From contig CANTFK010000270.1 in NCBI GenBank assembly GCA_947646735.1, forward strand, positions 310,001 to 374,000: a DNA stretch of 64,000 nt, written 5' to 3'. Below, one piece after another: positions 27,808 to 62,580 of the stretch. The position numbers were made by a program, and so were the translations under genes. This DNA comes from Peronospora farinosa. Taxonomy: Eukaryota > Oomycota > Peronosporomycetes > Peronosporales > Peronosporaceae. The first letter of the stretch is position 1. Each line of letters starts with the position of its first letter. The notes below the pieces were generated by a model. It worked only from the letters and a program-made list of their open reading frames with translations, was not told where the DNA came from and did not search any database.

Positions 27808-28137
27808 ATCGATGTGGATATGTGATCTCTTCTGGATCAACATACCGTTTCAGACAACCCACGTAAAATACGGGGTGAGTCTTCATATACGGTAGGAGAG
27901 TGAGCCTATAGTTTAGGTCTCCAACTTCTTCAACCACTGTAAATGGCCCAATGAATCAGGGAAATAGCTTAGTAGCACCAGGTAGTACAGAAATTGCATG
28001 TTTAGGTAGGGTAACAGTACTTAATAGCACTTTGTCCCCAACACTAAAGTGTTCATTGATTTTGCGACCATGCTGGTCTGCATATTGTTTTTGCTTGTAC
28101 CGTGCGCTTGCCATCGCGTCACGGACTTTACGTGTGA
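27231..28137 (-). pseudogene. pol: Element B pol 3' end: integrase C-terminus and chromodomain (copy 1)
   Basis: From 28132 downwards the minus strand reads DAMASARYKQKQYADQHGR, then VGDKVLLSTV, FIGPFTVVEEVGDLNYRL and HPVFYVGCLKRYV, the usual Gypsy integrase C-terminal domain. A chromodomain follows: LVDTEGNTRFIV, then after a frame change ILVQWKGYPTSFDSWEP (about 27370-27310). Pol stops at TAG 27233-27231. A TGA interrupts the frame near 27955 in both copies. The piece continues the integrase at 35936-37260, from which it was cut off by element C. Confidence 0.8.
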
Positions 28138-28456
28138 TGTAAGGGTCTACCTATTACATAAGTAGTCATAGGATTAATACATAATTACATAAGTAGGCAT
28201 AGGGCAGTATCCGATTAGCGAATACTGCGCGTCATTTTATTATTGGTTTATTATTGGGGTGCCAGACCCAATAATTAGCCAATAATAAATTGACTTCCAT
28301 ATTTGAGTGGTTCCCATGAGCTAGGGAACATATTCGCACTTACTGCGAATTAAAACTAAAACAAAAATAAAACAGAGTTATATTTACGAGTTAATTAAGA
28401 GCGCTTCCTCAACGCCCTTTTAGTGTAAGACGGTAACGGGTCCTTAGACCGTTATA
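28138..28456 (+). repeat. C 5' LTR (copy 1)
   Basis: 319 bp, beginning TGTAAGGGTCTACC and ending CCGTTATA, a mutated form of the TTACA end. It contains the same serial hairpins as the other C LTRs. It abuts TGTGA of element B. Confidence 0.88.
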
Positions 28457-28458
28457 CC

Positions 28459-28481
28459 TGGTAGCACTTCGTATTCCTTCC
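28459..28481 (+). other. Primer binding site of element C
   Basis: TGGTAGCACTTCGTATTCC starts two bases after the LTR. TGGTAGCA complements a tRNA ending UGCUACCA, as initiator Met tRNAs do; this tRNA assignment is inferred. Elements A and B have nearly the same site. Confidence 0.7.
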
Positions 28482-28482
28482 A

Positions 28483-29460
28483 ATGACCAGATTCGAGATG
28501 AAGATGGGCGAGTCTTCGGTGGCTCCAGCGGTCTCGCTGGAGCATTCTGATTTCCCACATCTCACCTCGGTGAAGTGGCAGGCACTACATCGCCTCGCGG
28601 CGGTGTCTGGTGAAACTATTGTGACGTCGCTGCTGAGCACAGCGACGCCTGACGATCAACGTGCCGACATCCAAGACATTATGGTGCGCGAGCTCGCCGA
28701 AGCGAATCGGCGAGTATTGACTCCCTCGCGCACTTCGCACCATGACGCTATCAAGATGGAGACGTCAATGTACTCCGGTGATGGTCCGGATCGTCTCCCC
28801 CTCAATCGCTGGTTTCGCGAGGTGGATATTGCAATCGCGTCAAGATTAATTGACGCTCCGACGGCCAAGGTCAATTTCCTGCTGTCTCGTCTTGCCGGCA
28901 AAGCCAAGGAATGGGCCCTCGGAAAGCTCGTCGTAGATGAGTCGGCGTTTCCTACGCTGGACGATATCCAGCGTGACTTACGACTGGCTTTCGAGCCTCC
29001 TCAAGATGAATCTCGCTTGCGTGCAGATTTCTTCTCACTCCGACAGGGCAAGCTGTCGATGCGTGACTACGTGCAGAAGACACGTCATCTTGCTTCGTGC
29101 ATTACCACGCAGCCAATTGACATGGCTTCACAAGTCCATGTCTTTATCTTTGGTATGCAAGAGGGTATGACGCGTTACTGCCTCACACGTGCTGAGCCAA
29201 AGTCCCTCGAGAATGAATTTGCCCTCGTGCTTCGTGAAGATCACACTGTCGCGTCGTCATACCTGCACGTAGCTTCACAACATCTGCGGACGTCTGGCCC
29301 ATATTCAATGGAACGTGACGCAATCGAGTCCTCTCGTGGTCACTGCAAATTATTAGGCCGCGACATTCGCAATCCTAACACGATGAAGTGTTTTTTTGTG
29401 GCAAGACAGGCCATCGTGCGGCTGTCTGTCGAACACCGGCGCAGGTGACTATGAACACAG
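28483..29460 (+). pseudogene. gag: Element C gag (copy 1)
   Basis: The frame from ATG 28483 encodes about 321 residues of a retrotransposon capsid-type gag: [12 protein letters not shown] at the start, [16 protein letters not shown] and [13 protein letters not shown] in the middle, and [19 protein letters not shown], typical of the Retrotrans_gag fold. The zinc knuckle is destroyed by a frameshift near 29390 (copy 2 keeps [14 protein letters not shown]). The gag start is 26 nt after the LTR, overlapping the end of the PBS region. Inactive as it stands. Confidence 0.8.
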
Positions 29461-29589
29461 CTGTCTCACGAGGAGACGCTGTGTCGTCGGTGGTCCCGAC
29501 AAAAATCGAGCGGTTCCAGTAGGCGTGGGGCGCCCTACTGGCAGAAATGGAGCCCCGAGTACTCAGGTGGCAGCTCGGGCTCCTAGCCC

Positions 29590-30130
29590 CAAAGTGATTC
29601 ATACCCACTTCAATGCCACCACCATGCGCGATGATTCGAGACTGATTATTATCAGTCTCATCGTCGCTGACCACTTCGAGCGTTGTAGGATTCTGGCGCT
29701 TCCAACAACTTCTTTCGTGCATCCTGTTTGTCCCTTCTCCCGTCGACTGTCACGGTTCGAGAAGGTCCAGGTGACATCGTTGTCAAACTTGCCGATGGAC
29801 AACCAAAACGTGTCCCGCGTAAAACAGTGGTTTTACCGTACACTTTCGACGGTTTCCAGAGCAACGACGAATTTTTGGTGTACGAGATGAACTATGCATT
29901 TGATTGCATATTTGGGATACCGTGGCTGTCACGGTATCAGCCGAAGATAGATTGGCTATCTCGGTCCGTCAAACGACGAAGCGGTTATAACGTCAGTGAA
30001 GTGTTTACTCATTTGTTAGTCGCTTCATCCGATTGGCCTCACGTCAGGGTCGTGAACGAACTCGCCACGACTAGTATTCAACACAGAGAGAGCGATGGCC
30101 CTCTGTGCGCAGTATGTTCCGTTACACTGA
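29590..30130 (+). pseudogene. pol: Element C aspartic protease region (copy 1)
   Basis: This is a retropepsin-like region. The active-site block is damaged here by a ten-base deletion near 29670 (copy 2 shows LLDSGASNNFF). The rest reads VTVREGPGDIVVKLADGQP, LPYTFDGFQSNDEF and YAFDCIFGIPWLSRYQP, the C-terminal half of the fold. It leads in frame into the repeat linker. Confidence 0.75.
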
Positions 30131-30147
30131 CGGAGCCACAGAACAAA

Positions 30148-30609
30148 GCGGTCGAACAGCGGTTCCCGCATACACAGACATCGGTCAAACAGGGGTTCCC
30201 GATTCACAGCGAGGCGGTTGAACAGCGGTTCCCGCACACACACACATCGGTCGAACAGGGGTTCCCGATCAATTTCGAGGCGGTCGAGCAGGGGCTCCCG
30301 CATACAAGCACATCGGACGAGCAGAGGCTCCCGATCAATTTCGAGGCGGTCGAGCAGGGGCTCCCGCATACAAGCACATCGGACGAGCAGAGGCTCCCGA
30401 TCAATTTCGAGGCGGTCGAGCAGGGGCTCCCGCATACAAGCACATCGGACGAGCAGAGGCTCCCGATCAATTTCGAGGCGGTTGAGCAGGGGCTCCCGCA
30501 TACAAGCACATCGGACGAGCAGAGGCTCCCGATAAATATCGAGGCGGTCGAGCAGGGGCTCCCGCAAACAAGTGAAGCGGTCGAAGACGAGCTCCCACTT
30601 TTGATTGAC
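30148..30609 (+). repeat. Array of 33 bp (11-residue) repeats in the C polyprotein, 14 units
   Basis: Fourteen 33 bp units encode AVEQ-x-(F/L)-P-HT-type and S(V/D)EQ-x-(F/L)-P-IN-type 11-residue repeats. The central units form a 66 bp higher-order repeat. The array links protease and RT. Because the period is a multiple of three without stops, several other frames on both strands are also open across it. Copy 2 has 16 units. Confidence 0.9.
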
Positions 30610-32745
30610 GAGAATGGGCGGACTACGGATCCGCATGAGACCGACGTGGTGGAGACAGAGCTCCCACGTCTAGAGGGGGGTACATCATCCTCTTGTGATA
30701 GCGACGTGCCAGTCTCGAGCAGGGGCTCGAGACGCAAGAGAAAACGCAAGAAAGGAGCACGCCGATCACCGAGACGACGAAATTCACGTCAAGATGCTGA
30801 TGCATTTGATTCCGTAGTGACGGAATCCGTATGCGCGCTTGAATATGTGGAGGGATCCCCACATCGTGGCCGATACATTGAGGTAGCGAGTCCACCGTGC
30901 ACTGCTGCAGATATCACATCTCTGCCAGACCTTACATGGAAAGACTTCCTTCATGACCTCAAGGCCGGCGACATCGAGCAGTGTGCATCGTTTCAGCCAC
31001 CGAAGCAGCCAGTGAAGAGGTTCTGGAAGCTCGCCCGAAGAGCGCCGAGCCTAAATCAGCGCGCGAAGAACGCTTCGCGGCACAGTCTTGGGATGCTCTT
31101 CGTGCTTCGGGTAACCCTGTATACGATATCGCCCGTGATTACGCCGACATTTTTCCGGAGAAGATTCCAGCTGAGCTCCCGGCGGATCGTAGTGTGCGGC
31201 ACGAGATAGATCTCGTGCCAGGATCGAAATACTGCGTGACACGGCAGTGGCCGTTACCGCGCGACCAAGTCATCGCTATTGATGAATTTTTCGAGGGTCG
31301 CCGCAAGGCTGGCCATGTCCGCGAGAGTATCTCGCCACATTCGAGTCCGACTTTCTGTGTAAAGAAAGCCACCGGCGGTTGGCGCATTGTGCACGCCTTC
31401 AACAAGCTGAATGACGCCACTATCCCGGTTCAAACGCCTATCCCTCGAAAAGACATGGTATTAAATACCATGTCCGGGAGCGAGATCTACAGCGCCATAG
31501 ATCTGACAGACGGTTTCTATCAGATCCTCATGTGAGACAGTGAATTCCGTTCACTGCGGTCAGCACCCCAAGCGGGATGCTTTAGGAGTTGCTAGTCATG
31601 CCACAAGGCCTTAAGAATGCTCCAGCTACGTTCAATCGGATGGTGACACAAGTACTCCGCCCACTTCGCGACTTTGCACCGAGCTACTTTGACGACATTT
31701 TCGTTCACAGCCGCGCTGAGCAAAAGCTCAGCGCTACGGAGGTACACCTTCGACACTGAAGCAGGTGTTTCAAGTTATGCGAGAGAATAAATTGTATGCG
31801 AATTTGAAGAAATGTGTCTTCTGCGCTCCCGAGATTCCAGTACTCGGTTGCTACGTCAGCAAGGAAGGTGTCCGCGCTGATCCTGAGAAGATCTCATCGA
31901 TCTTTTCCTGGACAACGCCCAGGAACCAAACTGAATTACGTCAATGGCTCGGTCTGGCAAATTACTTGCATAAGTATACGAAGAACTATGCTGAGCTAAT
32001 TCAGCCATTATCGACTTTGCTCAAGAAAGATGCAGTATGGTTATGGACGGCAGAACATCAATCTTCCTTCGACTCCGTAAAGAAGAGTTTGTCCGAGGCA
32101 CCGGTGCTGATCTTACCTGATGACTCTAAGCCATTCCACGTCGTGTGTGACGCGAGCAATTTAGCTATAGGATGTGCCCTCATGCAATTTGATGACGAGG
32201 GTCGAGAGCGCGTCGTGAGTTTTTAATCTCGACAGATGTAACCTGCCGAGAAAAATCATCCGGTACACGACAAGGAACTTTTGGCTATGCGTTACGCGCT
32301 AATCAAGTTTAGAGTATATTTGCTCGGTGAAAAGATGTTTTCTATCTACACAGATCACGCATCATTGCGTACCGCCGTCAAGTGTCCTTACTTGTCCCAG
32401 CGTATGGCACGGTGGTTGTCATTTTTTGCCGAGTATAATTTTGTGGTGCATTACAAGCCTGGCAAGAATAACATTCTCGCCGATGCGCTTTCTCGTCGTC
32501 CTGATTACGATCCTCGGCGTGATATGGGTCATCAAACGGAGTATGTTGATGACGACGAAGATATCTGTGTGTGTTGTAATGAACTGGGACTTAATGCGGT
32601 GATTTCGACCCCCGTGCTTTCGATCCGAACTCAGATCGCTAAATCCTACGCGAATGATTCCTTCTATGCAGGAATCATCAACTATCTCAGGGACCCGAGC
32701 GAAAAATTACTCGCGAAGTTGACGCGACAACATCAAGCGTTACGC
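30610..32745 (+). pseudogene. pol: Element C reverse transcriptase and RNase H (copy 1)
   Basis: After a basic stretch (KRKRKKGARRSPRRR) the Gypsy RT begins: PADRSVRHEIDLVPGSKYC, VTRQWPLPRDQV, SPTFCVKKATGGWR and AIDLTDGFYQILM. The catalytic box is YFDDIFVHS at about 31685-31711. RNase H shows FHVVCDASNLAIGCALMQF, YTDHASLRTAV and the tether HYKPGKNNILADALSRRPD. Frameshifts occur near 31000, 31535 and 31755, and a stop at 32225. The YxDD box itself is intact. Confidence 0.82.
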
Positions 32746-35022
32746 GCTTGACGGTCCGTTGCTGACGTACACGATGGACGTCATTGATTCCCCGCGTGTC
32801 GTCATCCCTGCTGATGACGACCTTCGAGCCCGATTGGTTCATGAATTTCACGACAGCCCAGCTGGCGGACACCTGGGTCGCGAAAAGACGTTTGCAGCTA
32901 TTTCTCGCGTATTTTTCTGGCCGCGAATGTATAAATACATCCAGAAATGGGTGCGCTCCTGTGAAACCTGTCAGCGTGTGAAGCCTGCGCCGTCTTCACA
33001 AGCCCCATTGCGTCCGCTTCCGATTGCTACGGAAGCCTGGCGCTCGGTCAGCATGGATTTTATCTTTGGCCTTCCACCGGATGAACAGAAACGCACGGGC
33101 GTATTGGTTCTAGTGGATCGATTCATCAATATGGTGCATTTTGCTCCGGTCTCCGCCAACATTACGGCGGCGACGACAGCGAAGATCTTCATTGATCTTA
33201 TCTTTAGGCATCACGGCTTGCCAGAATCTATTGTTTCGGACCGTGACCCGCGTTTCACTTCGGCTTTCTGGGCCGAATTATTCCAGCTATTAGGCACGCG
33301 GTTGCTTATGTCTACGGCGGCCCATCCAGAGACGGATGGGCAAATGGAGCGTGTGAACAGAGTGCTCGAAGATATCTTGCGCAGTTGTGCATAATTGTTC
33401 TCGTCATGGAGTTTGTTTCTTCCCCTTGCAGTGTTTGCAGTAAACAATGTTGTACACCCTTCAGCCGGGTTGACGCCCTTTTTCGTGAACAAAGCGAGGC
33501 ATCCTCGCGTTCGGGCGCTTCTTGCTCTCTCAGCTTCAGAACACCCTGTCTCAAAACTTGGTGGAAGAGTATCTACGGATGGAATTGCGCCGAAACTATT
33601 GATGATTGATTACGATGCGCATAAGGTTGCTGCCGATGCACCTAATACTGGTAATTTCGTGAACAACGGCATATAGACTCCTGACGCGATGCTTTCCATC
33701 GCGTCTTCCGTTGCCAATTTTGCTCCAAAGGAGAATACGTCGCCTGTAAGTTCGGCTGCAGTAACCGAATTTTTGCTATCACGACAAGGAATCACGCGAT
33801 TTGTGCGTGATGCATTACAAGAGGCAGTCGACAAGCAAAAGGAGAATGCAGACAGAAGAGGACGAAAGAATATGTTGATATTTCGAGAAGGTGACAGAGT
33901 ATTGTTATCAACAAGTGGATTACCGAACACCTCAGTGACGAATTTGGGCGCTAATAAGTTAGCGCCAAGATATATTGGCCCATTTTGGGTTGTTAAGGTG
34001 CATGGTGACGCTTACACGCTAGAAATACCTACATCTATGCGTTTGCACCCGACGTTCTACGTCGGGCGCCTTAAGGCTTACATACCGACGGTTTTTCCTT
34101 CAAATCTTCCCCGCTCTTCTGTGCCGGCTCGAAATCCGACATCCCTTGACGACGACGTTGACGACGACGTTGACGACGACGTTGTCGACGACTGGGACCA
34201 AGTCCTGCCGAACGCGTGCAGACTCGATCTGCTGGGGTCCTCCGAACGCAGTCGTCTCAAGCCGACGTAGGCGCTCAACCAGTACCAGCTGCTCACGTCG
34301 AGTCCTCTCAGCAGCCTCAGTCGCAGCATCCGCACGATCTTGAGCTCTCTCAGCCATCTCGCGAGCATCAAGTAGGGCATTCTTCGACTCCTCGGCTTCA
34401 GCGCGAAGTAGGCGCAGCTCATCATTCGACGGTACAGGCGCCCGATTACGAGAATCGGCGCTCATCGCCAGAGGTCTTCCGTCGTGATGCTCCTCCTCCC
34501 TTAGTTGATGCATAGAGTGCGCGACGCTGGATTGTCGACCGAATTGTCGATCACGAGGATCACAAGTCCCAGGCGCCGAGTAATAACTCGGCGCCCATGA
34601 AAAAGCATGTCGAGAAACATTACAGGGTTTGCTGGTTGGGATATTCCCCGGCGGACGATACATGGGAGCCATCGAGTACGCTGTCCCAAGATGTCCCGGA
34701 CGTGGTCGAGGACTACGAGTCCCGTAGAAAGACGGTGATCGCGACCGACGCTGACGGTTCCATCCCCGATCTCGCGAGCCATAATGCTCGCGAGCAACGA
34801 AACCGCGACGACCTCCCGAGCGACTCCGAGACCGAGACCTATTACGAGGCTCGGGAGCATATGAATGATACGGTTGACGACCTCGGCTACGTGAATGCCG
34901 TCGGCGATCGTAAGGACGCGCTCTCACTCGCCGTAGCTCGGACACCTGGAGCTCCGAAAGGCTTCTCTCATAGGGGCAATCCATGGACGAATATGGTCGG
35001 GCATGCCTCGCGCACACACTAA
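32746..35022 (+). pseudogene. pol: Element C integrase and chromodomain (copy 1)
   Basis: The integrase has the H-H-C-C zinc finger (HEFHDSPAGGHLGREKT...CETCQRVKP). The DDE residues lie in SMDFIFGLP, VSDRDPRFTS and ETDGQMERVN. The C-terminal domain reads EGDRVLLSTSGLPN, YIGPFWVVKVHGDAYTLE and HPTFYVGRLKAY. The chromodomain begins PLVDA-ARRWIVDRIVDHE and contains YRVCWLGYSPADDTWEP (about 34620-34675). A long acidic tail runs to the stop near 35022. Frameshifts lie near 33390 and 33670. The tail and chromodomain region is the part overlapped by the antisense gene. Confidence 0.8.
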
Positions 35023-35499
35023 GTCGTCCCATTCCTGCCGGAACGGTCGTGATCTGCCCACGTTGCATGTTGGACATCCCTCACGAACGTGGACGTAACA
35101 AAGGTGATACTCGTCACACGTCATACGACAGATGCGCTGGCGCAGGTCGCCAATAGCGTGTCTATCACGCTTTCCCTCGCGACCGTCTAACCAGGACGTG
35201 AAGGACGTTCCTTCACGTCGGCTCGCGTTCCAGTGCCTGATGAAGGCACACCAAGCCCTTTGCAACGCATCGTCGGTATATGCGTTGTTCGTTGCCTTGC
35301 CTCTCACTGTACGGTATCGCGTGAAAAGGTCCTTCATCACCTCCAGTGGCTCGGGTTCGACAGCACCTTCAAGACCATACAAGCGCCACGGTATCAAGTC
35401 ACCATCCATGACCTGCGGCGCCTGCTCTCTACGGATTGTCTCTTGGTGTTCCCAGTTTTGGCTGTCAGAGACATTGTTTCGTGGACGCCTAGTGTCCAT
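34100..35499 (-). pseudogene. Antisense gene of element C (copy 1)
   Basis: An ORF runs opposite to pol from ATG 35499. Its first part (to about 35020) lies between the pol stop and the PPT. It encodes PWRLYGLEGA, DALQRAWCAFI, FTSWLDGRE and a Cys/His cluster (CYVHVREGCPTCNVG), homologous to the element A antisense protein. One frameshift near 35020 moves the reading to 35077-34100. There follow WRRRYRS-like basic sequence, RS repeats (RNRSRSRSRSGGRRG), an Arg/Ser/Pro-rich middle, and a coiled coil (REMAERAQDRADAATEAAER, LVERLRRLETTAFGG). Full length would be about 460 residues. Copy 2 lacks this frameshift. Function is unknown; RS plus zinc-like motif suggests RNA binding. Confidence 0.62.
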
Positions 35500-35500
35500 G

Positions 35501-35526
35501 CTGCTCAGTTAAGTCTAACTGAGCAG
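35501..35526. repeat. Perfect hairpin at the antisense ATG of element C
   Basis: CTGCTCAGTTA and TAACTGAGCAG form 11 bp arms with a four-base loop. On the antisense strand the structure ends one base before the ATG. Confidence 0.8.
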
Positions 35527-35597
35527 GTTCGGAGTTACGCCGTTGGTCGAGAAGATACTTTCTGCGATTCGCGCTTACGTTGAGGTAAGCGCAACTT

Positions 35598-35611
35598 AAA
35601 GAGGGGGGTGA
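35598..35611 (+). other. Polypurine tract of element C
   Basis: AAAGAGGGGGGTGA lies immediately before the 3' LTR start TGTAATGGG. Confidence 0.85.
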
Positions 35612-35930
35612 TGTAATGGGTATACCTATTACATAAGTAGTTATAGGATTAATACATAATTACATAAGTAAGCATAGGGCAGTATCCGATTAGCGAATAC
35701 TGCGCGTCAATTTATTATTGGTTTATTATTGGGGTGCCAGACCCAATAATTAGCCAATAATAAATTGACTTCCATATTTGAGTGGTTCCCATGAGCTAGG
35801 GAACATATTCGCACTTACTGCGAATTAAAACTAAAACAAAATAAAACAGAGTTACATTTACGAGTTAATTAAGAGCGCTTCCTCAACGCCCTTTTAGTGT
35901 AAGACGGTAACGGGTCCTTAGACCTTTACA
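35612..35930 (+). repeat. C 3' LTR (copy 1)
   Basis: 319 bp from TGTAATGGGT to CCTTTACA, followed by GGTGA and resumed element B sequence. It carries the four-hairpin series described for 58705-59024. Confidence 0.9.
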
Positions 35931-35935
35931 GGTGA

Positions 35936-37260
35936 TGGCTAATCGCTCATCCACAAAGCGCTGAGCTTCGCTCACGCTTATAGCATTCGGCTCGCCTACG
36001 ACGCCTCCAAGAGGTCGTTCATGGGTCGACGCTGTTGACAACACTATAGTGTCATCATCAAGGAGCACTGGCATTTCTTGCCGTGCCTCCTTTGTGACAC
36101 CTATTAGTGCCGGGACCACTGCTAAACTAGCAGTGTCACTAGGGCAACCTTGGCCCTTTTTGGCATTCGCACCGAGCGAAGTGAGGGGACCTCCCCCACT
36201 AAGACTCGGGCTGCGTACAAACGAGACTGGCGTTCGAGGATGACGCAGTCCGTTAATGTAAAACGGTGTTTCACCCGTACTGGCGTGAACACTGTTATTA
36301 ATAGCGAACTCCACGAATGGCAATTGCTTGCTCCATTCTTTGGGAGTCGCTATTGTACGCAACACATCCGCCACGACTCGATTGGCCCGTTCTGTTTGAC
36401 CATCGGTCTGGGGATGATCAGCGGTTGACATGTGGAGCTTGCTACCCAGCAGCTCAAACACATGTCGCCAAAAACCCGACGTAAAACGCGGATCCCGGTC
36501 CGATACTATGGTCTCGGGCATCCCGTGTAGTCGATACACGTGATCCAGAAACAAGAGGGCAGCCTCTTTTCCTGAGATCTTGGTGCTACATGGTGCCAAA
36601 TGCATCATCTTGCTCAGTCTGTCTACACAGACAACGAGCCCCGTCATCCCTTTAGGGTCAGACGGTAATCCAAACATGAAGTACAAACTGACCGACTTCC
36701 AACATTCAGTTGGAATCAGCAGTGGCTTCAGTGGCGCACTGTTCGAAGGTGCAGGCTTTATGCGCTGACATTCTTCGCAACAGCGAATATAGTTGTCCAC
36801 CCACCGATATAGGTGGGGCCACCAAAATTCCTCTGAAACTCGTAAGAATGTCTTTTCACGGCCCAGCTGACCACTAGATGGCGCATCATGGCACTCGTAA
36901 AGCATCATCAGCCTGAGATCTTTGTCATGAGGGACATCGATTCTCAAGGGATCACAGGGTGACAGTTGATGCCATAATAGGCCCTCACTGTAACTAAAGC
37001 GTTTTAGTTTCGCTTTGAGGTGCGACGGAAGGGTCACCTTTCGTCCACCAAAATGATCCAGCAGCAGGCGAAAATGTTCTTCCTGACTGTAACACTCCTT
37101 GATATCGGAGGCCATTGAGATCGTCACATGGTAGGCTTTCATGGCTGCCAGTGTTGGCGAATCACCTTGTGCTTTCGCACGAGACACACTTTCCTGGTGT
37201 CTTGCCTCGAGGTCTGGTCTGCGCGATAACGCTTCAGCCAAGACATTCGACTTACCTGGC
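35936..37260 (-). pseudogene. pol: Element B integrase core (copy 1)
   Basis: The minus strand encodes an almost open integrase: ECHDAPSSGQLGREKT (zinc-finger His), CCEECQRIKPAPS (zinc-finger Cys), SVSLYFMFGLP, SDRDPRFTSGFW and TDGQTERANRVV. The first catalytic Asp, normally in SLDFMFGLP, is Tyr here; copy 2 keeps Asp. The second Asp and the Glu are present. The frame ends FVDERLAITC at the insertion point and resumes at 28132 beyond element C. Confidence 0.85.
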
Positions 37261-38640
37261 TTATATTCAACTTCAAAATTAAATTAAAAGAAGAATGTTA
37301 GCCATCTCGCCATTCTCCGCGAGAGGTGCGGTGAATTTATAGCGGTCCGCAGTGATGCGTGATCCGTATAAACCACAAAAGGTTCGGTGCCCAAGAGGTG
37401 CACCCGAAACTTCACAAGGGCATACTTATTGAAAGTAGCTCCTTGTCATGCACAGGGTTATTCAGCTCGACAGCTTTTACAAGCCGAGACTGATAAGAAA
37501 TGACACGGTCAACGCCGTCGTCATCCTTCTGCATGAGCGCGCTGCCGATTGCAAAATTGCTTGCATCGCAGACGACGTTAAAGGGCTTATCCGCGTCTGG
37601 CAATGCCAAGACCGGTGCCTATACAAGAGATTGCTTCACTGATGTGAACGCATCTTCTTGCTCCTTTGACCAAGTCCATTCTGTATCCTTTTTTAAAAGG
37701 TCAGACAATGGCTAGTCCGCTTCGCACAATTCTTGCGGATACTTATGCAAGTAACTAGCGAGCCCAAGGAATTGACGCAGATCCTTCACATGACGTGAGA
37801 CTGGCCATTCCTTTATAGCCTTTACCTTTTCTGGGTTGCTCGTACCCCATGTGCACCTACGATGCAGCCCAGTACAGGTATCTCGGGGAACTCTATTACA
37901 CAATTTTGCAAGTTAACGTATAATTGGGCATCACCCAGTGTCTGCAACACAGCGTATAAATGACGCTTGTGCGACTATATTGCGCTCAGATCTTCTTCCG
38001 CCCTACTATGTACGAATACATCGTCAAAGTAATGGGGCGCGTAGGCACGGTGCTGACGCATCACGTGAGCCACTACTCGGTTGAATGTTGCTGGAGCATT
38101 TTTCAACCCTTGTGGCATCACAAGCCACTCCCACAGCATACCTCTTGGGGTGCTTACTGCCGTTTTGGCTACATCAGTATCTCTCATGAGAACTTGATAG
38201 TAGCCACCCTCCAGATCCAACGCGAAAAGATAGTTGACTTTCCCATGGAGTTTTACAGAACATCTTTCCGCGGGATCGGCGTTTGAGCCGGAATCGTGGC
38301 CGTGTTCAGCTTATTATAAGCTTGAACCACGCGCCATCCACCTGTTGCTTTACGCACACAGAAGGTCGGGCTGCAGTGAGGCGACATTTTCTCACGTACA
38401 TGTCCCGCCTTAGCTCGCTTGTCGAAGAACTCAACTATGTAATCGACTTGTTCCTTCGGCAACGGCCATTGCCTGGTCACACAATACTTGGTGCCAGGCT
38501 CCAGGTCAATCTCGTGCCTGATGCCCCTATCGGCCGGTAGGCGGCTCAGCACTTCTGCTGGAAACACATCACGGTGTTTCCACAGAACATCATAGAACGG
38601 GCTGTTCTTCAAGGCATCCCAGCCTTAAGCAGCAAACCGT
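37261..38640 (-). pseudogene. pol: Element B reverse transcriptase and RNase H (copy 1)
   Basis: The RT N-terminal part reads at 38612-38253 (LPADRGIRHEIDLEPGTK, SPTFCVRKATGGWRVV). The catalytic region reads at 38220-37975 (LWEWLVMPQGLKNAPATF, HYFDDVFVHSRAEE). RNase H reads at 37609-37412 (FNVVCDASNFAIGSALMQ). Frameshifts separate each block. The YFDD box is intact. Confidence 0.8.
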
Positions 38641-39145
38641 TTCTTCTTGTCGGTTTCCAAGACGCTCTCGTCCATTGTGGACGACGAGCAACAGTCCATA
38701 ACGTTCTCTTCTGGAACTGGTGCGACTATCTCGTGGATCTTTCCTTCCTTTAGTTCAGACAGGAACAGATCCTACGTCATCTCCGAGAGATTTACTATCT
38801 CCTCGGAAGATGCCAAGACAAGTTGGAGCACCTCAACTGAGGATGCCTCCGGCATTTTGTCTTCGACGGCCTCGAACAACTCGTTCGTAGGTCCGTCCTC
38901 TTGGACCGAGACTGATCCAAGGGTCACTCGTTTCGACGTGCCCTTGATCATCTTAATACGTCTGGTGCTCGTTCTTCGAGTCACCACGAACTTTGACCTG
39001 GAAGAAGGTGTCGTGGCTACTTCAGCTAACGCACTCCTTCCAACCACACCAGGCTCATGGCTCTGTGCCGGTTCTTGTGGCGCTTGAATTCCTGTCAACT
39101 CACCATCAACTGCCACAGGCTCTCGGCTCTGTGCAGGACTATTGG
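38641..39145 (-). pseudogene. pol: Element B linker between protease and RT (copy 1)
   Basis: An open minus-strand stretch (39116-38772) encodes a Ser/Thr/Glu-rich segment (RTSTRRIKMIKGTSKRV, EVLQLVLASSEEIVNLSEM) with no fold that I recognise. Its upstream half lies beyond element A. Confidence 0.6.
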
Positions 39146-39150
39146 ACGCA

Positions 39151-39494
39151 TGTAAAGGGGCTAGAACGTACCGTCACTAGCTTACACGCGCGCTCGAGGA
39201 AGATTCAAGCCCAAGTATTAGGTATTAGGTAAATTTAACTCTGATTTTTATTTTGGTTTTAATTCGTACTAATTACGAAGATTTTAGTCGTAATAAATAC
39301 GACAGTGTTCCCGCCTTTCGGGAACCACACAATTTCAGGTTGATTTATCATTGGTCCATATTGGGGACTTTAGGCCCCCAATAATAAACCAATAATAAAT
39401 TACCACGCTGTTCCAGCTATTCGGGCCCAGCACCTGCCTACATATGCGATTGTTTATTCATGTTAATACTATGTGTGTAATGTAGCCCATTACA
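39151..39494 (-). repeat. A 3' LTR
   Basis: 344 bp, TGTAAAGGGG to CCCATTACA on the plus strand. Hairpins: TTCGTA/TACGAA (39263-39279), GTCGTA/TACGAC (39287-39303), GTTCCCG/CGGGAAC (39307-39325), and a long AT-rich inverted repeat built on ATTGG/CCAAT. The solo LTR at 62232 differs from it by a single base. Confidence 0.93.
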
Positions 39495-39507
39495 GCGCTC
39501 CCTTCTC
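39495..39507 (-). other. Polypurine tract of element A
   Basis: The minus strand reads GAGAAGGGAGCGC directly before the 3' LTR start TGTAATGGGC. Confidence 0.7.
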
Positions 39508-40910
39508 ATGACAGCACTCACCAACCGTGAGTGCTCAACTGTCGAAAAGCCGTCGCTCACAAACGAACAAGCAATGTCCGGAGACCCAAAACCCAATCCA
39601 GCAGGACGCCCAAGATACATCAGCGGGAATGCATCAACCAGCATCATGGCGCGGCAGCTCTACCTTGGTCACTGTACGACTTGTCCGGAGCTCACTCTCC
39701 GGACTCGCTGGACACGATGCGGGACTACTTCCGCCGATTTCGAAAACTGCGCGGGAAAGGTCTTGATGAAATCGAGCATGAAGCTCTACAACGTTCTTGG
39801 TGTGCCTTCATCCAACGTTGGAATCGGATGCTCGACGATGGTAGCAGCTTCCAATTATGGCTCGCCAATCGAGAGGAGCTTCGCGCCGATCACTCCATCG
39901 GCGCGCTACGCGAAAGAGTGTGTGAGGATGCTTGGAATGTGGACCGCCACTGCTTCGTCCATGTCAATAAAGGATGCCGATCTTGTGACTCGACTCCACG
40001 CCCAACTCATGACGAATGGCGACGACACATCGCTGAATGTCCACTCAGCGAACGCGAACGAAGTTGGATTGCAAAGTATGAGCGAAGTCTGAGCGAACGG
40101 AGGAGCGCAGTTATTCGTGGTGCGCCTCGCTGGCAGCACCACTCGCGACAGCGGAGTCAATCTCCGCGGAATCATCAGCGCAGGGCAGCGACACGTTCGC
40201 CTGCCCGTCCTGCTGCGCGATTCTCGCCTCGCAATCGTGATAATGTGTATTTACCACGACGTTCTCGTTCACGGCATCGTTCTCGTTCGCGTCATCGTTC
40301 TCGTTCTCGACGACGTGGATCTCCTTACCACTCTCGTTTGTCACGAGAGCGTTCGCGTGCTCGCCCGCATTGGGATAGCCCGACTTCGTGGCTTCATACG
40401 ACAGAACTACATCTGGAACGTCACGAAGGAGCGAGGAACGTGGTTCCCATGTATCCTGCTCGGGAGGGAATCCAAGCCAACGTACTCGATACCTGTGCGC
40501 CGACGGAACCGCGCGCTTCTCATAAGCCGACTGCAGTGCTGGTTGTGGAGGGTCCTCGTGACCCACAATGCGTTCTACAATCCAGCTCACCTGTCCCTCC
40601 GCGTCAACAAGCGGAGGAGGGCCCTCTCGATGGTAGTGCTGGCGTCCTGGTTGCTCAGGACAATGTTTATCAGGCCGTGAACATAGCTGCCAGTGAACGT
40701 GCTGCCCGGGCGGAGAAGACTTCGAGTGAGAACAGACAGTCGAATCGTGAACTGCTCGAACGGATAAGGGTTCTGGAGCACCAGGTGCTTGGTCAGGTCC
40801 AGACGGGATCGAGGCCCCGCCCCATGTCATCGGCGCGTCGAGCACGACGGGATGGCCGTTCGACTTACGAACCCCTGAAGCCGGCGTCGGAGCCAAACCG
40901 TGAAGCGTAG
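39508..40910 (+). CDS. Antisense gene of element A
   Basis: A 459-codon open frame (39531-40910) runs against pol. Its first 190 codons lie between the pol stop (40111) and the PPT. Residues align with the element C antisense protein: PWSLYDLSGA, EALQRSWCAFI, FQLWLANRE, and a Cys/His cluster (HCFVHVNKGCRSCDS, then EW and WIAKYERSLSE). An RS domain follows (RSRSRHRSRSRHRSRSRRRG) and a coiled-coil end (NRELLERIRVLEHQVLG). The frame has no ATG before the conserved part. ATG 39508 lies in another frame with a strong GTGAGT donor at 39527, and an acceptor at 39656-39657 would join it in phase. A frameshift is the alternative. RNA-binding is inferred only from RS and Cys/His content. Confidence 0.68.
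39513..39535. repeat. Perfect hairpin at the antisense start of element A
   Basis: AGCACTCAC and GTGAGTGCT form 9 bp arms with a five-base loop, starting two bases after ATG 39508. Element C has a different-sequence hairpin at the equivalent position. Confidence 0.75.
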
Positions 40911-41520
40911 CCGGACGATATTCCTTCAGCCGCCCGACATAGAATGTCGGGTGGAGTCGCAGTGAAGAGGGAACGTCGAGTGTATAAGCGTCGCCAATTG
41001 TCTTCAGAACCTTGAATGGACCGATGAAGCGTGGCGCGAGTTTACTCGCGCCCAGATTAGTGACCGCTGAATCCTTTAAACCTTCCGTAGATAATAATAC
41101 AAGGTCACCTTTCCCAAACTTGCTCATATTCTTTCTTCCATGTTTGTCAGCGTTCTCCTTCTGTTGATCTACCGCAGATTGTAGTGCGTCGCGTACAAAC
41201 CGGGTGATGGCTTGACGTTTAAGTATAAATTCCGACACAGCCATGTCATCAATTGGTCGCGCCGACTCAATCGGCGCGTAGTTGGCAGTAGGTGAACGCT
41301 TACCCGAAGACGGTGCAATCAATGTCTGCGCAGTCCATCGAGCTAATGGGGACGCCACGTCTGGTGGCGTCAAAGTGGCCGTCTTTGCCTTGGATCGGGT
41401 TACTGCATTCACGCTCAAAATACCGTGAGCTGCACTCGATCCTTGTTTATCACCTTTATCCCCCCTGAGTGGAGCCACTAGGTGTTGTGGGTCGCCCCAC
41501 GGCCAGGACAGTAGGAACAC
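40111..41520 (-). pseudogene. pol: Element A pol 3' end: integrase C-terminus and chromodomain
   Basis: This is a 469-codon open minus-strand frame. The integrase C-terminal domain reads KGDLVLLSTEGLKD, FIGPFKVLKTIGDAYTLD and HPTFYVGRLKEY. The chromodomain reads PPPLVDAEGQVSWIVERIVG and YRVRWLGFPPEQDTWEP (about 40520-40470). A long acidic, Asn-rich tail (NENDDANENDAVNENV) is the exact antisense of the RS domain. Two hundred residues at the N-terminal side (41200-41500) are linker. This is the best preserved part of element A. Confidence 0.85.
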
Positions 41521-42560
41521 GAGGGTGACGAGCCGAATTCACAAAAAATGGCGTCAACCCTGTTGACGCGTGTACAGCGTTGTTGAGTGCGAACTCAGCG
41601 AGTGGTAAAAATGCACTCCAACTTGTAAATGACGTATCATAACTTTGAAGAACGTCTTCGAGGACCCGGTTCACGCGCTCGGTCTGCCATTCGTTTCCGG
41701 ATGGGCCGCAGTCGACATCAGCAGTTTTGTCTCGTGGAGCTCGAAAAGTGACGTCCAAAATGCGGACGTAATATCGCGGGTCACGGTCCGAAACAATGTT
41801 TTCTGGAAGGCCGTGATGACGGAACACCGCGTCGATGAAGTACGCCGCGGTCTCTGCCGCGGTGACCTTAGCGTGAACAGGCACGAGATGTGTCATCTTG
41901 CTGAATCTGTCAACAAAGACCAAGATGCCCGTTCGAGCTTGACTATCGGGCGCAAGCCCGAAGATGAAGTCCATCGAAACTGTTCTACAGGTCTCTGCTG
42001 CCATTGGCAACGATCGCAAGGGAGCCTGCGACGATGGAGATGGCTTCACACGCTGGCATATTTCGCACGTTCGGATCCAGTTGCGTACCCACTTGTACAT
42101 GTGGGACCAGAAGAAGTCTCGAGAAACAGCCGCGAAACAGCCGCGAAAGTCTTTTTGCGGCCTAAATGGCCGCCAGTAGGAGCATCGTGATACTCGTGAA
42201 TGATTCTTGCACGCAAATCCATGTCATTGGCAATCACCGTGCGAGGAGAATCGAATCGGTCGATGCTATACAGAAGCAAATCGCCATCTAAACTGTATCG
42301 ATGAATGTGATCGCGCTTGGTTCGGGATAATGCTCCCAGTGCAGCATCGCTGGGAGCACGCAGATACTCGATAATGTCTGCGTAATCTGAATCCCTCTTG
42401 TACGCTGCGACGATCTCATCAAATAAACACGACTCGGGTGTAACCCGAGTTAAGTTCAGCGATACACACAGTGCACATCGGTCATCATCGTCCTCGTCAT
42501 CAGTAGCCTGACGACTCAGAGCAGTCCGAGGATCGTAGTCGGGACGTCGTGACAAGGCGT
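41521..42560 (-). pseudogene. pol: Element A integrase zinc finger and catalytic core
   Basis: The zinc finger reads HEYHDAPTGGHLGRKKT and CEICQRVKPSPS. The catalytic core keeps SMDFIFGLAPD, VSDRDPR and, after a frameshifted stretch near 41700-41770, QTERVNRVLEDV. A 15-base-scale duplication/insertion near 42120-42140 (repeat of GAAACAGCCGCGAA) also shifts the frame. Inactive. Confidence 0.78.
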
Positions 42561-44137
42561 CAGCGAGAATATTGGTCTTGCCTGGCTTGTAATGCACGAC
42601 GAAGTTGTACTCAGAGAAGAATGAGAGCCATCGTGCCATCCGTTGGGACAGGTGTGGGCTCTTCATCGCTGTGCGCAGCGATGCATGATCGGTGTACAAA
42701 GCAAATGTACGTTCACCAAGGAGATGCACGCGAAACTTGATGAGTGCATAGCGCATCGCTAATAACCTGATTTTCGTGAACCGGATAGTTCTTCTCAGCT
42801 GGCTTCATCTGTCGCGACTGATAACTCACGACTCGTTCACGGCCCTCATCATCGAATTGCATGAGGGCACAACCGATTGCAAAATCACTGGCGTCGCAAA
42901 CCACGTGGAACGGCTTGGAGTCGTCTGGTAGAACCAGAACTGGCGCTGACGCCAGGCTCTTCTTTACTGCTTCGAAGGCTGCTTGGTGCTCCGGACGCCA
43001 CAACCACGTGGCGTCTTTCTTCAAGAGTGACGACAAAGGCTTGATAGAACCAGCGTAATCCCTCGTATATTTGTGCAAATAATTAGCCAAGCCGAGCCAC
43101 TCGCGCAGCTCCGTAGGGTTCTTGGGCGTGGGCCAAGAACAGATGGACGACACCTTCTCTGGATCAGCTCGAACTCCCGATTTACTCACATAGCAACCTA
43201 ACACCGGAATCTCCGGTGCACAAAAGACACACGTCTTGAGATTCGCGTACACCTTGTTGTCCCGCATAACTTGAAACACTTGCTTCAGGTGTTGAAGGTG
43301 AGCTTGGACATCGCTGAGGTTGACCTCGGCGCGACTGTGGACGAAAATGTCGTTAAAATAATTTGAAGCAAAGTTCCGAAGAGGTCTTAACACTTGAGAC
43401 ACCATACGATTGAAAGTGGCCGGAGCGTTCTTCAATTCTTGTGGCATAACCAGCCACTCCCATAACATGCCACTCGGGGCTCTCACCGCGGTGAGTGGGA
43501 TATCACTCGGTCGCATCAGAATCTGGTAAAAGCCATCGGTCAAGTCGATGGCACTGAAAATGACACTTCCTGACATGGAATTTAGCACCATGTCCTTCCT
43601 GGGAATAGGCGTTTGCGCAGCAATAGTGGCATCATTCAACTTACTAAACTCATGCAATATCCGCCAGCCTCCCGTAGCCTTCTTCACGCAAAAGGTTGGA
43701 CTCGAATGTGGTGAGATACATTCACGCACATGACCCGCTTTGCGGCGGCCTTCGAAGAATGCGTCAATAGCTTCGACTTGATCTTGAGGCAACGGCCACT
43801 GCCGTGTCACACAATACTTCGACCCTGGCACGAGATCAATCTCGTGCCGAACACCACGGTCCGCAGGAAGTTCAGCCGGGATCTTGTCCGGGAACGCGTC
43901 TGCATACTCACGAGCAATGTCGTAGACGGGGTTACCAGACTCTCGCAGAGCCTCCCATGATTGTGATGCAAACCTTTCTTCACGCGCTGACTTCGGCTCA
44001 GCGCTTCGAGGACGCGCCATATGCTCCTCGTTTGCCACGGTAACCACCTCGTTGGTGATTAGACACAGTGCCTCCCTTAAGGTCACGTAGGAAATGCTTC
44101 CAGGAAAGCCCTGGAATGCTTGTAATGGAAGACGCAT
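42561..44137 (-). pseudogene. pol: Element A reverse transcriptase and RNase H
   Basis: A 474-codon frame (44137-42713) covers the RT: PADRGVRHEIDLVPGSKYC, SPTFCVKKATGGWRIL, AIDLTDGFYQILM and LWEWLVMPQELKNAPATF. The catalytic box is YFNDIFVHS near 43360-43330, with Asn in place of the first of the two catalytic Asp residues. RNase H follows (FHVVCDASDFAIGCALMQF), with a frameshift at about 42745 into YTDHASLRTAM and KPGKTNILADALSRRPD. RT activity should be lost. Confidence 0.85.
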
Positions 44138-44192
44138 GACGAGGAGGACTCTCGACCTCGATATATTGGCGCCTTTGTGGACTCCCTTTCAC

Positions 44193-44995
44193 TTACACGA
44201 TAGCGTGGACACATTCGAACGCTAAATTCTCGGTGCTGTTGTCCCCATCGTGCTTCGAGTCACTACTCGAAGCTGGCGAACCGCAGTCAGGTGATAAACC
44301 ATCACCCCCCTCTAGGCACTGGATTTCTTCATCCAAGATGCCGGAAACACTGGACGGGAGTACCCCAAACTCGACCGTCGACACTTGATGCGGGAGCTCC
44401 TGCTCGACCGCCGTAAACCCGTGTAGGAGCCCCTGCTCAACCACAGTATGCCCATGTGAGAACCTCGGTTCGACCACAGTGGGTGATGATGGGAACCCCG
44501 GTTCGACCATCATGCTCTCGCGTGGGGACTCCTATCCGTCCACGTTGTACTCGTGTGGGAGCCCCTGCTCGACCACAGTGGGTAATGATGGGAACCCCGG
44601 TTCGACCATCATGCTCTCGCGTGGGGACTCCTGTCCGTCCACGTCACACTCGTTAGCGAGCTCTTGCTCGTCGTCACAATGCCCTTGTGGGAGCCCCAGC
44701 TCGACCACAATAGGTGCAGATGGGAACCCCAGTTCAACCACTGCATTCTCGTGCGGGAACCAGTGTTCAACCGCGTCGTCCTCGTCGTCCTCTTCGCTCT
44801 GTGGCGAGGAGTCACTGTCACTTGTGTCTCGAAGAACAGCACAAGCAGTGCAGAGAGGGACATCGCTCGCTCTGTGCACCGCCAACGTCGTGGAATCACG
44901 ATCCACGACTGTGACATTCGGCCAGTCACTTGGAGATACCAAGAGATGGGTAAACACTTCACTGACATCAAACTTGCGTCGACGTCTCACTGATC
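44193..44995 (-). repeat. Element A repeat linker (11-residue repeats)
   Basis: The linker reads as [16 protein letters not shown] and [12 protein letters not shown] units of 11 residues, the same motif as the element C array. A 99 bp higher-order repeat is visible at about 44479-44577 and 44578-44676. Two in-frame stops occur, one near 44527 (Gln to stop) and one at 45000. Confidence 0.8.
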
Positions 44996-44999
44996 TGGC

Positions 45000-45401
45000 T
45001 TACCAGTCGATCTGGGGCTTATAATGTGCCAACCATGGTATGCCCAGTATGCAATCGAATGCATAATTCATTGCGATCACCAAGAAATCATCAATACTGC
45101 GGAAGCCATCAAACGTGTACGGCAACGACACTTCGCGCCGCGATAAGCGGTGTGGTTTCCCGTCAGCCAACTTGACGACGACTTGGCCAGGTCCCTCACG
45201 GACCTGGATGCTGGGAGGCAGCATCGATAAAAAAAATTCACGAAAAAAATTATTTGTTGCTCTTGAGTCCAGGAGTGCTCGCAGAGGTCGCCGGAGGCCG
45301 GCGACATGTAAACTGACAATAATCAGCCGTGAATCACCACTCGTAGTGGTGGCATTTAACCGTGCGCGTAGCGCAGGAGGACTGGAAGGTTGGGCTGCCA
45401 C
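45000..45401 (-). pseudogene. pol: Element A aspartic protease
   Basis: The retropepsin-like domain has the active-site block LRALLDSRATNNFF, with Arg where Gly is expected after DS, then VREGPGQVVVKLADGKP, LPYTFDGFRSIDDF and YAFDCILGIPWLAHYKPQ. It ends at a stop (TAA, 45002-45000) in frame with the linker beyond. Confidence 0.82.
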
Positions 45402-45445
45402 CGGGGGACCCGGACCTCCGTTCCAACCAGTAGGGCGCCCTGCAC

Positions 45446-46500
45446 CTACTGGTCCCGACCGTTTCTTGGGCGTGCGGCCAGTACAGCATACTCATGATGG
45501 ACATCCACTACTTGCACCGATATTGGCGCTGACGCACGGCACTCTGCCGCGCGATGTCCTGGCTTGCGACAACGAAAGCAAACCATTTGACGCCCGGTGC
45601 GAGCGTCACCCATATGATGAAAGACACGTCGTCGGTCACCCGACGACTCAATCACGTCGATCTCCATAGGTTCTGGACCAGAAGGCCGGGGAACGCTGAC
45701 GACCGAGGGTTTGGCATATGCCTTTGTGACCCTAAAGTCTTCATGGAGTGCGATGGCAAATGCTTCCTCCAATGTGGCAGGCTCGGCACGCTCCAGCGAT
45801 AAGCGGGTCTGTTCCTCACGCATACCATCCACAAAGACATTCACCTGCGTGTATGCGTGTATGTCCATGGGGTGCGTGATAATACACGACGCCAGATGCC
45901 TAGCCATCTGTACTTAGTCGCGCATCGCCATTTTACTCTGTCGCATCGACAGGAATCTTGATCGCACCAGTTTCTCCTCTTGCGGTGGCTCGAAAGCAAG
46001 ACGAAGATCGTCCTGGATGGTATCCAAGGTGGGGAATGCGTGCTCGTCCACAACGAGCTTACCAAGGGCACACTCCTTGGCCTTCCCGGTGAGGCGGGAA
46101 AGAAGAAAGTTGACCTTCGCCTGGGGAGCCTCATGAAGTCTCGAGGCGATGGCGATATCAACTTCTCGGAGCCACCGATTCAGCGACAACTGGTCCTTAC
46201 CTTCTCCAGAGTAGGAGGAGGTTTCCATCTTCACGGCCTCATTACGTGAAGGGCGCGAGGGAGTTAAGCCTCGCCGGTTGGATTCGGCGAGCTCGCGTGC
46301 CATAAACTCATGTATGGTGAGACGTTGCGCGTCAGGGGTCGCTGATCTCATCAGCGACGCGACGAATGCCTATCCCGATATCGCCGCGAGGCGATTATGG
46401 GCATCCCACTCAACACCAGTAAGATGGGGGAGGTCGCGTGCTCCAGAAATAAATCTGGAGCGTCAAAGTACGACGATTCGCTCATCCCAAACTCGGGCAT
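45446..46500 (-). pseudogene. gag: Element A gag
   Basis: Gag starts at ATG 46500 (MPEFGMSESS), shortly after the PBS. A frameshift near 46430 and a stop near 46365 are followed by a long frame from 46351: [32 protein letters not shown] and [13 protein letters not shown]. An in-frame stop near 45911 replaces Tyr of MRDYVQ. The zinc knuckle CFRCRKPGHRAAEC at about 45575-45535 is intact. Clearly homologous to element C gag. Confidence 0.83.
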
Positions 46501-46501
46501 A

Positions 46502-46524
46502 GGAAGGACTACAAAGTGCTACCA
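46502..46524 (-). other. Primer binding site of element A
   Basis: The minus strand reads TGGTAGCACTTTGTAGTCC, two bases after the 5' LTR. It is nearly the same as in elements B and C. Confidence 0.75.
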
Positions 46525-46526
46525 GG

Positions 46527-46871
46527 TGTAACGGGGCTAGAACGTACCGTCACTAGCTTACACGCGCGCTCGAGGAAGACTCAAGCCCAAGTATTAGGTA
46601 TTAGGTAAATTTAACTCTGATTTTTATTTTGGTTTTAATTCGTACTAATTACGAAGATTTTAGTCGTAATAAATACGACAGTGTTCCCGCCTTTCGGGAA
46701 CCACACAATTTCAGGTTGATTTATCATTGGTCCATATTGGGGACTTTCAGGCCCCCAATAATAAACCAATAATAAATTACCACGCTGTTCCAGCTATTCG
46801 GGCCCAGCACCTGCCTACATATGCGATTGTTTATTCATGTTAATACTATGTGTGTAATGTAGCCCATTACA
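46527..46871 (-). repeat. A 5' LTR
   Basis: 345 bp from TGTAACGGGG to CCCATTACA on the plus strand. It differs from the 3' LTR at one base near each of positions 6 and 52 and by one extra C in GGGGACTTTCAGG. Confidence 0.93.
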
Positions 46872-46876
46872 ACGCA

Positions 46877-51477: not shown

Positions 51478-51797
51478 TGTAACGGGCTAAGGACCCGTTA
51501 CCGTCTTGCACTAAAAGGGCGTTGAGGAAGCGCTACTAATTAACTCGTAAATATAACTCTGTTTTATTTTTGTTTTAGTTTTAATTCGCAGTAAGTGCGA
51601 ATATGTTCCCTAGCTCATGGGAACCACTCAAATATGGAAGTCAATTTATTATTGGCTAATTATTGGATCTGGCACCCCAATAATAAACCAATAATAAATT
51701 GACGCGCAGTATCCGCTAATCGGATACTGCCCTATGCATACTTATGTAATTATGTATTAATCCTATAACTACTTATGTAATAGGTAGACCCATTACA
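51478..51797 (-). repeat. C 5' LTR (copy 2), inverted
   Basis: 320 bp; the plus strand runs TGTAACGGGC to CCCATTACA, the reverse of the other C LTRs. It is followed by TCACA, the complement of the TGTGA target duplication, so the LTR was flipped together with its target site. Confidence 0.92.
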
Positions 51798-51814
51798 TCA
51801 CACGAAAAGTCCGT

Positions 51815-58592: not shown

Positions 58593-58704
58593 GCTGCTCA
58601 GTTAAGTCTAATTGAGCAGGTTCGGAGTTACGCCGTTGGTCGAGAAGAAACTTTCTGCGATTCGCGCTTACGTTGAGGTAAGCGCAACTTAAAGAGGAAG
58701 ATGA

Positions 58705-62575: not shown

Positions 62576-62580
62576 ACGCA

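Follow-up and report, generated by a model that had tools for sequence, protein, structure and literature searches.

A probable antisense accessory protein gene overlapping pol at the 3' end of chromodomain Ty3/Gypsy elements of Peronospora farinosa

Two Ty3/Gypsy retrotransposons, here called A and C, lie in the 64,000-nucleotide stretch of the Peronospora farinosa genome that we analysed (assembly GCA_947646735.1, contig CANTFK010000270.1, positions 310,001 to 374,000 of the forward strand; hereafter the window, in whose numbering all coordinates are given). Both carry, at their 3' end and on the strand opposite to pol, a gene whose N-terminal domain of about 150 amino acids is under purifying selection not explicable by pol. 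That this is a real protein gene is virtually certain and, as judged from protein sequences, the antisense protein and its overlap with pol recur in Phytophthora and Peronospora. Antisense accessory genes are already known from some retroviruses and from one group of plant Gypsy elements; what is new here is that oomycetes have them too, that the oomycete protein is unrelated, that selection at codon level is seen where pol is absent and that the overlap phase is common across genera. The features concerned are the following.

28134 to 35928, plus strand: Ty3/Gypsy element C, with long terminal repeats (LTRs) at 28134-28454 and 35608-35928 (identity 97.5%) and a gag open reading frame (ORF) at 28483-29448; from self-BLAST and Pfam
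34924 to 35499, minus strand (open stretch 35508-34927): C antisense gene, first frame, with ATG at 35499 and the conserved domain
34100 to 35077, minus strand (open stretch 35080-34103): C antisense gene, second frame past the frameshift, with the arginine/serine (RS) region and the C-terminal part
39151 to 46875, minus strand: Ty3/Gypsy element A, 3' LTR 39151-39498 and 5' LTR 46527-46875 (identity 98.9%); from self-BLAST and pol domains in separate ORFs
39499 to 40110, no strand: pol-free stretch in A from the 3' LTR to the pol stop, 612 bp
39508 to 40092, plus strand: A antisense gene, start-region frame, ATG at 39508, 9 nt from the LTR edge; the frameshift precedes the domain
39531 to 40910, plus strand: A antisense gene, main open frame of 459 codons, with the domain, the RS region and a probable coiled coil; has homologs
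39660 to 40118, plus strand: conserved helical domain with four cysteines in the protein of the A antisense gene (main-frame residues 44-196, approximately); from alignment and AlphaFold2 of an unbroken copy
40111 to 41520, minus strand: A pol end, with SH3_Tf2-1 at 40915-41109 and Chromo at 40393-40584; the antisense frame overlaps it over Chromo
57876 to 58601, minus strand: third antisense-gene copy, C family, 242 open codons from the domain into the RS region, with a C-type LTR at 58702-59022

The gene begins 9-113 nt inside the 3' LTR and returns over the tail of pol and the chromodomain in one fixed phase. The distance from ATG to LTR edge is 9 nt in the window copy of A and 108 nt in that of C, and in other copies it is 13 nt in A and 111-113 nt in C (an edge was recognisable in three of four A copies and three of four C copies). 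The A frame spans the Pfam Chromo match, as the initial annotation had proposed, and terminates just short of SH3_Tf2-1. That annotation had also described a single long ORF in each element, at 35499-34100 in C and 39508-40910 in A, which does not hold for the window copies, both of them frameshifted and divided into two frames. The frame offset is equal in A and C, with antisense position 3 opposite pol position 2, so that each pol codon is complementary to positions 2 and 3 of one antisense codon together with position 1 of the following one. Because 612 bp separate the 3' LTR of A from its pol stop, the conserved domain is pol-free in this element. The proposal that much of the shared part lies outside pol thus stands in full for A and only in part for C, where in copy L012 about 118 antisense codons are pol-free and the open pol frame enters the cysteine part. 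In the same copy, the pol frame opposite antisense positions 1492-2904 brings the C-terminal tail of C pol as far as the antisense cysteine domain, unlike in A.

The antisense proteins that A and C encode at their 3' ends are homologous. The window copies share 65 of 174 aligned residues (37%; E 6e-35, BLASTP), somewhat below the 40-45% first estimated by eye; between two unbroken copies, identity over the domain is 44%. Among all 36 pairs of frames from the A and C regions, the antisense pair scores 313, and the second-best pair, its mirror on the sense strand, scores 137. The domain of the third window copy (58601-57876) is 93% identical to that of the first C copy. The nearest other C LTR to this third copy (51480-51801) is oppositely oriented.

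Unbroken copies are present in the genome, of which 46.85 Mb in 274 contigs were searched; the best 92 of 929 candidates were scored for A and the best 150 of 648 for C, and the counts are lower bounds. For A, at least 19 genome rows besides the window copy have 400 or more of the 459 residues in a single stop-free stretch (frames of 460-501 codons), and for C the aligned part is stop-free in at least eight rows (frames of 468-471 codons). In first-order Markov sequences, 147 codons were open by chance in 13 of 5000 cases and 428 codons in none of 5000. Across 36 A copies, chosen from the upper part of the genome match list and therefore leaning towards whole copies, the pol-free 441 bp contain 2 stops in the antisense frame and 63, 372, 149, 134 and 119 in the others. 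In the pol-free 354 bp of 17 C copies, the antisense frame has 8 stops and the others 92, 116, 23, 7 and 115.

Selection was measured as omega, the ratio of nonsynonymous to synonymous substitution rates (dN/dS), with a likelihood script in which the topology and the relative branch lengths are fixed from FastTree, and the values are therefore approximate; tests against omega = 1 are given as twice the log-likelihood difference (2dlnL). Of the 36 A loci, 34 were used, L027 and L045 being dropped for want of 147 open codons, and 12 of the 17 C loci, with L014 and L051-L054 left out; L004 and L006 are the same places as L017 and L027. Loci L056-L063 were taken as possible divergent families, but only L057 was divergent enough, and it was the sole one used. 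For the 34 copies of A, the 147 pol-free codons have an omega of 0.58, with a value of 1 rejected (2dlnL 10.3); by branch it is 0.34 on internal and 0.67 on terminal branches, with omega = 1 rejected for the internal ones (2dlnL 8.5). Between the A copies L022 and L017 and the divergent subfamily L057, it is 0.26 and 0.23 in the pol-free part (2dlnL 28 and 36), and between A or L057 and C, over the 77-80 codons that are pol-free in both, it is 0.04-0.06 (2dlnL 26-30), which is near saturation. The pol-free part therefore does not evolve at a dN/dS near 1, the outcome that would have told against the initial annotation, with the exception of C taken alone, to which we return below. Whole-gene omega is 0.54-0.63 for A-L057 and 0.29-0.35 for A-C, and the pol-overlap part of C has an omega of 0.70 (2dlnL 4.1).

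This signal belongs to one frame. Among the six frames of the A-L057 comparison, the antisense frame has an omega of 0.26, its mirror 0.40 (2dlnL 13.6) and the remaining four 1.36-2.18, and the A-C comparisons are alike. Counted by codon position, the differences are 22/23/50 at positions 1, 2 and 3 for A-L057 (p 0.0003) and 60/55/94 for A-C over the whole domain (p 0.0016). Pol-free omega below 1 and an antisense frame kept open bear out the earlier suggestion of a real accessory gene; the homologs in three genera, most of them co-encodable with pol in one antisense phase, extend it.

The homologs come from a single-protein search, which gave at least 17, and from a profile search, which gave at least 37 with the 17 included, every one at E < 1e-20; in each search, the 7992 best candidates were scored. 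Twenty-five of the 37 are named to species, all of them Phytophthora, Peronospora or Hyaloperonospora, and 12 are nameless. Among the candidates scored, no species-named homolog was found outside these three genera, and scans of collections of viral contigs and of genome contigs confirmed no relatives there. The homologs are mostly annotated as hypothetical, uncharacterized or unnamed, and this set of Phytophthora and downy mildew proteins is likely to consist of retrotransposon accessory proteins. In a domain tree of 21 sequences (midpoint root, several low supports), A clusters with P0001, P0002 and P0018 (Peronospora destructor), the sequences from Phytophthora make up the other part, and C stands with P0020 on a long branch.

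The overlap with pol could be followed in these proteins by asking whether one DNA can encode the antisense protein and a pol protein on opposite strands in each of the three antisense phases. The test used 120 of 164 pol proteins, worked from proteins alone and took no account of how codon positions depend on one another in Arg, Leu and Ser codons. Twenty-nine of the 37 antisense proteins reach a score of at least 20 in phase 1, which is also that of A and C, and the control L024 reaches 278. Four pairs were examined further, and in these a shuffled pol protein, with 60 shuffles per pair, scores at most 15. The best pair, P0010 and P0040, both from Phytophthora rubi, is compatible at 218 of 222 codons; P0009/P0041 (187 of 192), P0002/P0039 (149 of 154) and P0006/P0042 (161 of 184) come from unlike or unnamed species. 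For five proteins (P0004, P0014, P0016, P0019 and P0033), the top score falls in phase 0, with P0116 or P0043 as partner; these two pol models, whose C-terminal ends fit phase 0, seem to change frame. The eight misses (P0020, P0022, P0023, P0026, P0030, P0031, P0035 and P0036) are 137-236 aa long, and several consist mainly of the pol-free domain.

The protein itself has three recognisable parts. In the AlphaFold2 model of an unbroken A copy, residues 51-200 form seven helices with block-mean confidence (pLDDT) of 77-95, between disordered flanks (predicted template modelling score, pTM, 0.46), and the domain modelled alone again has seven helices (pLDDT 83, pTM 0.52). Four cysteines spaced C-x9-C-x7-C-x2-C are invariant or nearly so, and the head that they define perhaps binds zinc. 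Downstream, RS or SR dipeptides are plentiful, as had been noted for both elements, with 17-39 in each of eight proteins. Near the C-terminus, the alignment shows a conserved helical-looking block, and Alanine_zipper of Pfam matches weakly in 4 of 27 members; a coiled coil is probable at this place. No Pfam family covers the domain, either in the window proteins or in the 27 members. Fold searches with the 230-residue and domain-only models against PDB and viral models gave nothing convincing, which excludes no fold, and a PDB sequence search with A2 gave three weak matches (E 0.21-0.29), all on the C-terminal part of the profile. Sigma70_r2 was set aside as a candidate: it matches the window C domain at E 0.0086 (16.3 bits against a cut-off of 24) and is unlisted for the 27 members at E 0.1. 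P0031 carries a Sigma70_r2-derived name in one source.

We consider it likely, as the best explanation of the whole, that A, C and their relatives are chromodomain Ty3/Gypsy elements with an antisense accessory protein gene whose product regulates the element. An antisense mRNA starting in the 3' LTR, which is very likely, would be translated in the antisense frame. The product would be nuclear, with a helical four-cysteine head, an arginine/serine-rich middle of nucleic-acid-binding or splicing type and a dimerising coiled coil, and it could control the element's own RNA or chromatin, through export, splicing, silencing or transcription from the LTR, much as HBZ does for human T-cell leukaemia virus type 1 (HTLV-1). 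Given the head, the RS middle and the probable coiled coil, a nuclear regulator of RNA or chromatin is the best fit, although the chance that this particular role is right seems about even. Somewhat less probable is a fuller version, in which the overprinted gene is older than the split of Phytophthora and Peronospora, encodes a new nuclear protein that controls RNA or counters silencing, and is an independently arisen counterpart of HBZ and the Retand genes.

Two other roles for the same gene deserve weight, and each is unlikely. The better of them is that the protein acts against the host's RNA silencing of the element and hence diverges fast. The antisense domain does diverge much faster than reverse transcriptase (RT), with 37-46% identity between A and C compared with 81-83% in two RT/RNase H pieces; Phytophthora infestans has small RNAs in both orientations over Gypsy elements, according to parts of a published account (PMC3522703), and the stretches rich in arginine could bind RNA. 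Rapid divergence can, however, arise in other ways, and the pol C-terminus is likewise only 50% identical between A and C; nor was there a match to a silencing suppressor, though no search was aimed at one. Slightly less likely still is a structural or integration partner, that is, a nucleocapsid-like protein or a chromatin-targeting helper acting with the pol chromodomain. Binding to particles or to chromatin would fit the basic RS-rich middle and the probable coiled coil, and the chromodomain of the element may target integration, but gag is a gene of its own in C, matching Retrotrans_gag and Ty3_capsid, and translation from an antisense mRNA would leave the protein outside the gag-pol product.

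Explanations that change the nature or origin of the gene fare worse. Recent insertion of a captured host gene into the elements is improbable: RS-rich proteins are common in hosts and transduction has been suggested as the origin of plant antisense ORFs (in parts of PMC11963269), but no homolog outside the three genera was among the candidates scored, the overlap phase is common to A, C and Phytophthora, and the tree is deep. An ancient capture of a host gene may have taken place. A regulatory antisense RNA without a protein is more improbable again, for although antisense retroviral RNAs can function as RNA (as stated in parts of PMC10186651), here selection acts on the codons of a single frame, and conserved residues are shared among the genera. 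Least credible of all is that the frame is a by-product of conserved pol or of an unseen sense gene on the opposite strand, since, even though about 280 of some 480 antisense codons overlap pol (control L024), the overlapping part of A gives no clear sign of selection on the antisense frame and the mirror sense frame has an omega of 0.31-0.40, the selected domain lies past the pol stop in A, the pol-free sense frames of copies L022, L044 and L057 have 3-7 stops each, no conserved sense protein was seen from the pol-free stretch, and the antisense 2dlnL is at least double that of the mirror (28.3/13.6, 29.5/12.4 and 55.5/15.8).

Several results weigh against an antisense regulatory gene. Within C, the pol-free part (12 copies, 118 codons) has an omega of 0.76, not different from 1 (2dlnL 1.0), and in A the part that overlaps pol has an omega of 0.93, also not different from 1 (2dlnL 0.3). 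Over the 80 codons that are pol-free in both A and C, the differences per codon position (31/31/49) are borderline (p 0.054), and in the 17 C copies the mirror sense frame is as stop-poor as the antisense frame (7 versus 8). As regards function, the Pfam and fold searches gave no fold or family match backing any biochemical role, and the putative nuclear location and RNA binding of the product rest on its composition.

In its position, the gene is comparable to the antisense genes of HTLV-1 and of plant Gypsy elements, as had been suggested; in its protein, it is unlike both. Plant Retand (Tat) elements, and also Grande and RIRE2, carry antisense ORFs encoding TRP28 (PF04195) proteins; parts of the same source report the Grande antisense protein as nuclear, and the function of the Retand ORFs as unknown, though they are conserved over many species (PMC11963269). 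The likeness is one of place, a Gypsy element in both cases having an antisense ORF situated between pol and its 3' LTR. In contrast, TRP28 was not matched (window proteins at E 1, 27 members at E 0.1), the host A has a Chromo domain whereas Retand hosts are described there as non-chromovirus, the stretch from pol to the 3' LTR is 612 bp in A compared with 2,933-6,566 bp (PMC11963269, in part), and the oomycete gene overlaps the pol chromodomain. HBZ of HTLV-1 and the APH proteins of HTLV-2 to -4 are, in parts of PMC10186651, encoded by antisense genes at the 3' end whose reading direction leads from the 3' LTR to the other genes, an arrangement that is seen here at the sequence level. HBZ has a C-terminal region of coiled-coil type (PMC10186651, in part), to which the probable coiled coil of the oomycete protein may be compared, but the latter has an RS-rich middle and no bZIP or other Pfam match, and its gene overlaps pol whereas HBZ overlaps the retroviral 3' genes. 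With neither TRP28 nor bZIP, a chromodomain host and the overlap with pol, the gene belongs to neither the Retand nor the HBZ type. Related antisense proteins elsewhere are nuclear, as given in parts of PMC11963269 and PMC10186651. SR proteins, a class of splicing factors, share the RS/SR-rich region, but no RRM was found in Pfam scans of the window proteins and the 27 members. Among oomycete Gypsy elements, Chronos has a chromodomain at the pol end, as does A, and is likened to it by the chromodomain alone; the word antisense is absent from the main text of the paper on it (PMC5348765, seen in part), and we found no description of an antisense gene in oomycete elements in the open-licence literature. 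If our interpretation is right, it would suggest that antisense genes of this sort keep arising in LTR elements, where their overlap with pol on the opposite strand makes them easy to overlook. The high copy number makes this gene easy to test with strand-specific RNA data.

The assignment of the hosts to Ty3/Gypsy rests on the LTRs, the Gypsy-type gag of C (Retrotrans_gag and Ty3_capsid in Pfam) and, in A, RT and RNase H, which together with SH3_Tf2-1 and Chromo are above the Pfam cut-off in separate pol ORFs. Chromo occupies residues 313-376 of ORF 40111-41520 on the minus strand (34.7 bits against a cut-off of 25.1), and the integrase core (rve) of A is below the cut-off (E 7.6e-6). The coding region is split into several ORFs in the window copies of A and C. 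Among the matches listed, the top one for the pol query is P0038 of Peronospora effusa, 90% identical over 95% of the query.

The LTRs of A and C are identical at 207 of 312 aligned positions. Otherwise diverged (39151-39498 and 35608-35928), they have in common an uninterrupted AT-rich block in which CCAAT occurs twice when read in the antisense direction. CCAAT boxes are active in oomycete promoters, and this block might serve as a promoter element on either strand; in a search of the antisense LTR for oomycete promoter words (Inr-like and FPR-like), no convincing pair was found. An A-type LTR at 62232-62579 is 99.4% identical to the 3' LTR of A, with no partner seen within the window. The C frame between gag and RT contains tandem repeats of 33/66 nt (30082-30609), and A has similar in-frame repeats at 44455-44758.

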